From positions 1 to 60,990 of the forward strand of contig JAJHQS010000005.1 of the NCBI GenBank assembly GCA_020833225.1: DNA of 60,990 nt, written 5' to 3'. Positions 5,082 through 60,990 of the stretch are shown one piece after another; within the stretch, counting starts at the first letter, position 1; the number at the start of each line of letters is the position of its first letter. The stretch is from Desulfurococcaceae archaeon. GTDB taxonomy: Archaea; Thermoproteota; Thermoprotei_A; Sulfolobales; Desulfurococcaceae. Position numbers and translations under genes: made by a program. The notes below the pieces were generated by a model. It made no database searches and had not been told where the DNA came from. It saw nothing but the letters and a program-made list of their open reading frames with translations.

Positions 5082-5202
5082 AATCAGTATTTCCAGCGTA
5101 CATCACCACTCAAAAGACCCTCTTTTCATCACTATTAATAAACAGAGATATAGTTCTTATTAAACTTATAAGGACGAGATTAAAAATTACACTTACTAGG
5201 AG

Positions 5203-59133: not shown

Positions 59134-59784
59134 ATGGGTGAGAATGTGATTGTAACTTGGCACGGCCATGCATGCGTGTCTCTGAGCGTAAATGGCTATG
59201 TTGTTGTGTTTGATCCTCATGATGGTGTTAGCTTAGGGTTAAAGAGGCCCAGTGTTCAGGGAGATCTTGTCCTCGTGTCACACGATCACTTTGACCACAA
59301 CGCCGTTAACGTTGTCGCTAAGAGGACAACTAGGGTCTTTAAGATGTTCTATGGCGAGACTGTAGTTGACAATGTAAAAATAGAGGGGCTAAGAACTTAT
59401 CATGATAAGCAGAAGGGTAAAAGGAGAGGAGAGAACGCAGTATACGTGGTTACAATTAGAGATCTCAGGGTAGCACACCTCGGAGATCTAGGTGAAATAC
59501 CGGGAAAAGAAATCTTAGAGAAACTAAAAGGCGTAAACCTCTTAATTATACCTGTTGGTGGGACTTTTACTATTGAGCCGGAAGAGGCTTGGAGTATTGT
59601 TGAGTTAACAAAGCCTAGGAATATAATGCCAATACATTACTGGATACCAGGTTGTACTTTACCCTTAAAACCCGTAGAGGAATTTTTAAAACATGTGAGG
59701 GAATATAGTGTAATCAGATTAAATACTAATGCATTTAATCTACGAGAACACGACAAATCTATTATTATAACTGCGTCACCGTGA
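59134..59784 (+). CDS. Metallo-beta-lactamase-fold hydrolase (UPF0173/UlaG-like)
   Basis: 216 residues: VTWHGHACVSLS, VSHDHFDHN (the HxHxDH motif), AHLGDLGEIPG and NIMPIHYW. This is the UlaG-like branch of the metallo-beta-lactamase fold, with two metals; the substrate of the archaeal members is unknown. It begins a plus-strand run with two small genes. Confidence 0.88.
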   Translation: MGENVIVTWHGHACVSLSVNGYVVVFDPHDGVSLGLKRPSVQGDLVLVSHDHFDHNAVNVVAKRTTRVFKMFYGETVVDNVKIEGLRTYHDKQKGKRRGENAVYVVTIRDLRVAHLGDLGEIPGKEILEKLKGVNLLIIPVGGTFTIEPEEAWSIVELTKPRNIMPIHYWIPGCTLPLKPVEEFLKHVREYSVIRLNTNAFNLREHDKSIIITASP

Positions 59785-60025: not shown

Positions 60026-60307
60026 ATGGCATATACCTGGGAGCCTAAATGGGAAGTTTTTGAAGTAGACGTAGAAGGTATTAAGTTTAGGACTTGTAGA
60101 GATAAGATCACAGGGCTCATAGCATGTCCCATATGCATACATGCAGCTTCAAAATGCCTTGGTGAAAAAGCCCCATCAACATATACATATGAAAACTCAT
60201 TTTTCTATACTATCGAAGACTTATTAAAACACATGAAAGGTTATCATTTACTCGGCTTAAAGAAGAGGGTCACTAAGCTCGTTGAAAAGTTGCGTGAAGA
60301 AGAGTAA
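60026..60307 (+). CDS. Small C2H2-like zinc-binding protein
   Basis: 93 residues: ACPICIHAASKC followed later by LLKHMKGYHLLG makes a plausible Cys2-His2 metal site. It begins MAYTWEPKWEVFEV, a conserved-looking N-terminus of small crenarchaeal proteins, but no function is known. It probably shares a transcript with the two genes before it. Confidence 0.6.
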   Translation: MAYTWEPKWEVFEVDVEGIKFRTCRDKITGLIACPICIHAASKCLGEKAPSTYTYENSFFYTIEDLLKHMKGYHLLGLKKRVTKLVEKLREEE

Positions 60308-60359: not shown

Positions 60360-60851
60360 ATGAAGTTTTGTTTATATGGTAATCCAACTATAGATGTTAT
60401 AATTACTAAGGAGTTTAAGAGAGTAGCTTATGGTGGTGGTGTTTATTACTCTGCACTTCCACTTATAAAGCGTGGTTTTACAATAGAAGTATACTCTGTA
60501 TTTAATACGAGATTAATAAAACATCCCATAGCTTCATACATTGTGAAATCGCAATATTCAAGTAGAACTAATATCTTTAACCTAGAGTACATTGATAATA
60601 GTAGAGTTATAAGAGTACTTGAAAAAGCACCTGCAATATACTCGTGGAATAGTCATGAAGATTATTGCTACACGGTTATTAACCCGGTTATAGGTGAAAT
60701 AGATATATCACTACTTAAATTAGTGAGGACAAAGTCTCAAATAATAGCCCTGGATATACAAGGATTCGTGCGTGATACTAATACCAAAGGGATTATATTT
60801 TTAAAGCCTTTCGCGGCTGTTTCGAGTTTTGTAAAGGTTTATAAGGTTTGA
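60360..60851 (+). CDS. PfkB-type carbohydrate kinase, N-terminal half only
   Basis: 163 residues from ATG 60360 (after AGTGATAATT; an earlier GTG at 60348 is less likely). The start CLYGNPTIDVI and AYGGGVYYSALPLIKRGF is the N-terminus of ribokinase/PfkB enzymes. The C-terminal half with the catalytic GAGD and ATP-binding segments is missing: the frame stops at 60851. The stop sits about 30 bases before a GC-rich block, so the gene may have been cut by an insertion. It may be a pseudogene. Confidence 0.6.
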   Translation: MKFCLYGNPTIDVIITKEFKRVAYGGGVYYSALPLIKRGFTIEVYSVFNTRLIKHPIASYIVKSQYSSRTNIFNLEYIDNSRVIRVLEKAPAIYSWNSHEDYCYTVINPVIGEIDISLLKLVRTKSQIIALDIQGFVRDTNTKGIIFLKPFAAVSSFVKVYKV

Positions 60852-60879
60852 CATTATCATATATTTTAATGTGGTTCTC

Positions 60880-60990
60880 TGTGAGGGGTGAAGAGCTCAT
60901 AGGGGCTCTCCCCGAGGGCAGTGGCTCAAGATGTGGGGTCTCAGGGGTGGCCCTGAACGCCCCCAAGGCAGATGCAGACCCAAGAAGCAA
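60880..60990 (-). other. GC-rich block at the window edge, possible end of a TnpB-type element
   Basis: About 110 bases of much higher GC content than the surroundings. Two hairpins are visible: AGAGC/GCTCT (near 60890-60910) and GGGG-N3-CAGGG-N4-CCCTG-N4-CCCC (about 60935-60965). On the minus strand the frame is open to the edge (…LLGSASALGAF, PEPLPSGRAP-like), and could be the C-terminus of an IS605-type TnpB with its overlapping guide RNA; a plus-strand frame is open too. A separate structured RNA with its own TATA-like CATATATTTT (60858-60867) is the alternative. Confidence 0.3.

Follow-up and report, generated by a model that had tools for sequence, protein, structure and literature searches.

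The question raised by this locus is why a sugar-kinase gene of a hot-spring archaeon lacks its second half beside a GC-rich block at the very end of a contig. The window analysed here is the entire contig (G000:C76, 60,990 nucleotides) of an archaeal assembly with 84 contigs and 1.47 Mb (G000), and its end falls inside a mobile element. As the earlier note had recognised, a pfkB-like ORF on the plus strand ends at 60851 without its catalytic half and adjoins the GC-rich block (60870-60990). The explanation that we consider likely, its inferred parts included, is that a pfkB-family kinase gene has been split by a non-autonomous, internally deleted TnpB-family insertion. The class to which such an element belongs, the PATE-like elements, is already known.

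The native kinase sequence in the window consists of about 150 N-terminal codons (60360-60808, plus strand) and can be aligned to residue 150 of the intact pfkB orthologues of relatives, which have 272-307 aa. Native sequence stops at about 60808, and the remainder of the called ORF (60809-60851) is the left-end DNA of a transposon. The absent half, including the catalytic GAGD motif, was found where the earlier note had expected it, on the far side, at the start of contig C11 (C11:1-399). C11 continues the kinase with no gap and an overlap of no more than one codon. The native frame in the window ends ...FLKP and C11 picks up with P-IPHIF, while the intact genes have a single residue at this place; the empty site thus reads AAAGCC|TATTCC (...KP|IPHIF... 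at the protein level). An alternative cut, GCCT|ATTCC, would require a right end of CCCCT, yet the base that follows CCCC differs from copy to copy. Eight relatives have the order UPF0173-type hydrolase, 93-aa gene, pfkB and C11 genes, and therefore C76 and C11 were once neighbours. The upstream anchors in the window are the hydrolase gene (59134-59784, plus strand; family name from reading the sequence) and the conserved 93-aa gene (60026-60307, plus strand), which has 43-82% identity to its counterparts directly upstream of pfkB. Downstream, the conserved order includes a C11 ORF of about 170 codons and, where the locus extends far enough, one of 464 codons. A Pfam search with the kinase half gave no match. 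The element accounts for both the broken kinase gene and the contig break.

The insertion begins after a CC dinucleotide (60807-60808, plus strand; site GCC|T), and C11 resumes the kinase with CCT. There is no target-site duplication, as the kinase codons run from C76 to C11 without a duplicated residue and only CC(T) is common to both sides at this one site. The left end (LE; 60809-60866, plus strand) carries a subterminal inverted-repeat motif common to the right end (RE). Its sequence corresponds to the LE found in full-length tnpB elements (L144, L158, L145 and C19 of the same genome) and in copies without tnpB, hereafter solo copies (L146, L153 and L150); complete short copies have both LE and RE in common with the tnpB-bearing elements L144, L145, L158 and C19/C20. 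Within the LE is a TATA-like motif, TTTATAAG (60838-60845, plus strand), recognised by sequence match and kept in window-type copies; a guide RNA standing by itself might be transcribed from it. The alternative given in the earlier note, a standalone structured RNA that has a TATA box to itself, is in part compatible with our reading, with the motif upstream of the scaffold described below.

Next to the LE is a relic of the tnpB start, MWFSVRGEELIGALPEGS (60869-60922, plus strand), comparable to MVSYSVRGEEP...ALPEGS of the intact L144 TnpB. It contains a 5' hairpin, GAGGGGTGAAGAGC/GCTCTCCCC (60885-60913, plus strand), that is kept in solo copies with a loop of varying length (alignment A4, 30 solo copies). 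The relic is fused to the tnpB 3' end (60923-60990, plus strand), which is also the first half of a predicted omega RNA scaffold. Across the final 67 bases (60924-60990), identity to C20:890-956, the plus-strand 3' end of a tnpB gene (...SRCGVFGVALNAPKADADPRS...), is 97%, and a covariance-model match of 59 bits covers 60927-60990. The ATG at 60869 opens an in-frame fusion, MWFSVRGEELIGALPEGS-GSRCGVSGVALNAPKADADPRS, to be compared with MVSYSVRGEEPTVVEALKARALPEGS...SRCGAPGVAPNAPK in the intact L144 protein; about the first 18 tnpB codons are joined to about the last 38 and some 350 internal codons are deleted. A conserved mini-peptide from this fusion (MWFSVRGEELIGALPEGSGSRCGV...) was considered and rejected, as other copies, read by eye, have stops or frameshifts.

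Complete copies elsewhere are 230-281 bp, too short for a transposase, and consist of the LE with its TATA-like motif, the 5' hairpin, a scaffold of about 127 nt and the RE, GAACCCC. The window holds 182 bp of a copy expected to be about 250 bp, and only the first half of the predicted scaffold, which runs past the contig end. Because of the size of the complete copies, the right 65-70 bp or so of this one, including the RE, would lie in the assembly gap between C76 and C11, where the junction is unassembled; the right junction is expected to read GAACCCC and then TATTCCTCATATTT. Rfam searches of the window and of its end region returned no relevant match, and no Rfam family matches the element in the window; a tRNA or other known ncRNA was rejected as well. 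Far from the element, close to a tRNA-Gly gene, Rfam matches the archaeal C/D box RNA sR20 at 5082-5136 on the minus strand.

The scaffold spans CAAGATG to GAACCCC, and in complete copies it lies at the tnpB 3' end and RE with the flanking DNA directly after it. The two strong hairpins described in the earlier note are indeed predicted; the stability of the fold, however, does not exceed that of shuffled sequences of matched composition (z -0.65). Minimum free energy was therefore set aside as evidence of structure, and comparative covariation was used instead. In a 62-copy alignment, 89% of the cells are paired and 11 of the 16 pairs have double changes; none of 500 shuffles did as well and sliding controls were lower. 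One 2-bp helix is seen as CC/GG, GG/CC and GC/GC. When the 34 solo copies are taken alone, the paired cells and the covariation score still exceed all shuffles, but the number of pairs with a double change does not rise above them (459/500). The scaffold looks like a conserved RNA structure, more weakly so in the solo copies by themselves, and the earlier suggestion of a guide-RNA-like scaffold overlapping the tnpB 3' end is supported. The same note had proposed that kinase DNA would supply the guide; this would hold for the C11 half and not for the half in the window.

Similar short copies are present in G004 (RSNS19; 90 and 89% identity), G047, G063, G005 and G007, and also in the Ignisphaera and Desulfurococcales MAGs RSNS13, RSNS17 and Bin S33; most of the named relatives that bear the element are MAGs of Desulfurococcaceae and Ignisphaera. 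The GXS.bins.2 MAG has 16 deleted solo copies with a variant hairpin, together with open frames that contain tnpB, 415 and 444 codons long, and have RuvC motifs. Its loci (GXS.bins.2.201912, L220-L270) comprise the 16 homogeneous tnpB-deleted copies and several tnpB-bearing ones, and the copies exchange blocks such as AAGCCC..CGG and AAGGGT..ACC. The complete 1.3-Mb genome G026 has 27 scaffold copies (L102-L128), mostly of a second deletion form, two of which (L109 and L114) are directly downstream of tRNA-like sequence; no intact cognate tnpB was found in this genome, where the best match is a 154-codon fragment. The genome of the window has only one cognate tnpB; its two parts lie on C19 and C20, which overlap exactly over 126 bp, and the joined gene has an in-frame TGA where relatives have a tryptophan codon. 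The protein belongs to the TnpB family according to Pfam (Cas12f1-like TNB) and to PDB matches with TnpB/Cas12f. The same scaffold and TnpB family also occur in a Methanomethylicota MAG (L222, L257 and L259) and a Nezhaarchaeota MAG (L236), by either horizontal transfer or a binning error.

Since the scaffold itself had served as the query, G026 was also searched with the LE, independently of the scaffold. Nineteen of the 22 LEs lead into scaffold and RE, the other three being LE-only remnants without an RE, and no copy in G026 has LE and RE without the scaffold; these copies are related by descent and not independent, and the RE overlaps the scaffold, so that its retention may serve transposition alone.

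How the element moves is a separate matter, and here we lean, with some reserve, toward IS607-like mobility over the IS605 type named in the earlier note, which is doubtful. The preference rests on the CC ends and on two carriers (G000 and the complete G026) that have serine TnpA genes and, in genome searches, no Y1 transposase. CC flanks the left end in all 27 copies with a recognised LE, the window included, mostly as GCC, and the RE ends in CCCC followed by a variable base. An imperfect inverted motif, TTCATATAGGTTTATA, is present in LE and RE at unequal distances from the tips, an arrangement described for IS607 (PMC6188088), a family in which recombination takes place at a dinucleotide that the partners have in common (PMC10711439). 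The empty kinase site is consistent with such a crossover. A dinucleotide at both ends, the lack of a target duplication and the unequal subterminal inverted repeats are likenesses to this family (PMC6188088, PMC10711439), although the same CC pattern would be seen if a target motif had simply been retained. Unlike IS607, the dinucleotide on the tnpB strand is CC rather than GG; none of the copies seen carries tnpA; the guide scaffold overlaps tnpB; and the base after the RE varies if the core is the last two C. The serine TnpA genes of G000 and G026 have ends unlike those of the window's element, and a search of 12 regions surrounding genes for serine or Y1 transposases brought up no element that has tnpA and these ends. 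Elsewhere in the window's own genome (L021, G000:C41:22000-25823), a serine recombinase gene is followed by tnpB as in IS607-type elements, again with unlike ends. Movement by a Y1 transposase of the IS200/IS605 type, with GCC(T) as a target motif and not a CC crossover, is a possibility to which we give roughly one chance in three: Y1 genes are present in G004, G047 and G054, IS605-type insertion would likewise account for a 5' motif that is fixed and a base after the RE that varies, and a guide RNA overlapping tnpB is typical of IS605 (PMC11061315). Difficulties for it are the CC at both ends, the IS607-like spacing of the inverted repeats and the absence of Y1 from two genomes with serine TnpA, one of them with 27 scaffold copies.

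The nature of the element itself could also be explained in other ways. The earlier reading, the right end of an intact IS605-type element whose minus-strand tnpB leaves the window, came from the GC-rich structured block and from an open minus-strand frame of 65 codons (60793-60990) that does run off the end. The frame is incidental, however, because the C20 match is the plus-strand tnpB 3' end; the tnpB homology adjoins the LE, the N-terminal kinase half abuts this left end and not a right one, and to the right, where a tnpB gene and TnpA had been expected, there is instead an internal deletion and then the other kinase half. The genome has no Y1, and both the strand and the full-length copies in other genomes refute this reading, which is extremely improbable. 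What does stand from it is that a TnpB-family insertion splits the kinase. Hardly more credible is an assembly artefact, a chimera at the contig end in which the 5' half of pfkB would have been fused with a tnpB repeat. The block is a repeat at a contig end, as such an artefact would require, but the same fusion of LE to tnpB 3' end occurs full-length inside contigs of other genomes, and C11 begins precisely at the complementary kinase codon. The most serious competitor, to which we give only a little less than an even chance, is that of a decaying PATE/MITE-like element in which LE and RE are kept for a transposase and the scaffold has no guide function, being either a passenger or a transposase-binding part. 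The many copies in G026 without an intact cognate TnpB, the stop in the cognate tnpB of the window's genome and the description of PATE-like elements with an LE, the last tnpB nucleotides and an RE (PMC7290912) would all fit such decay. It explains less easily why all 19 G026 copies that retain LE and RE have the full scaffold of about 127 nt with compensatory pairs, given that the protected region in the RE of an IS607-family member, IS1535, is only about 20 bp (PMC6188088), or why a MAG that has intact TnpB (at least one ORF of 415 aa with RuvC motifs) also has an amplified solo form.

In the reading that we prefer, the complete scaffold would have been kept because it provides a read-through guide for TnpB acting in trans. 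The element would depend on mobilisation in trans, as the many copies in G026 and the GXS MAG suggest, and the enzyme would be a serine TnpA of IS607-like type that recombines CC/GG dinucleotides. An RNA would start near the TATA box of the LE and pass through the 5' hairpin, the scaffold and the RE into the flanking kinase DNA, and a TnpB supplied in trans would then gain a guide that targets the kinase allele lacking the insertion; in this way the element would be restored after excision. To judge from the sequences, it is plausible that TnpB makes use of solo guide RNAs in trans. The coexistence of solo copies and TnpB in GXS and G004 supports this reading, while G026, without an intact cognate TnpB, and the stop in the tnpB of the window's genome weaken it, since neither genome then has a working partner nuclease. 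A bolder version, which we regard as unlikely though worth stating, is that these elements are "guide-RNA parasites" that discarded the nuclease gene and kept a standalone, promoter-driven guide RNA, that TnpB from a full-length relative makes the cut at the empty site by which the small element is restored, and that the solo guide RNA is a separate lineage with a compact 5' hairpin.

Among known systems, the element is most like the PATEs (palindrome-associated transposable elements) of Haloquadratum (PMC3119063), which are short, lack a transposase, have the ends of TnpB insertion sequences and make no target duplication. A PATE-like element of Halanaerobium has kept its LE, its whole RE and, of tnpB, the final 58 nt (PMC7290912), as the window's copy keeps the LE and tnpB 3' end and, by analogy, the RE. 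Unlike the PATEs, this family is present in several Desulfurococcales genomes and has a hairpin from the tnpB start, scaffold covariation and ends that look IS607-like. It also resembles the omega RNAs or reRNAs of TnpB (ISDra2 and the archaeal sotRNAs; PMC8612924, PMC12558985), in which a structured RNA covers the tnpB 3' end and RE and the flank serves as the guide, but here the body of tnpB is deleted and Rfam gives no match. What is less usual is the widespread, amplified retention of the complete scaffold together with the 5' hairpin from the tnpB start; we found no papers on standalone TnpB guide RNAs in the open-licence literature.

In this group of hyperthermophilic archaea, TnpB-less elements with an apparent guide RNA outnumber full elements, and their nuclease context differs, an intact nuclease being sometimes present and sometimes absent. 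Whether non-autonomous elements use TnpB in trans is therefore a directly testable question in these archaea. As a minor observation, at L153:1260-1414 (minus strand), sub-threshold Rfam matches to sot0042 and HgcC lie over the end of a TnpB-like gene (its 3' end) that is unrelated to the family described here, and the old HgcC family of high-GC RNAs from hyperthermophiles may in part consist of TnpB guide RNAs.
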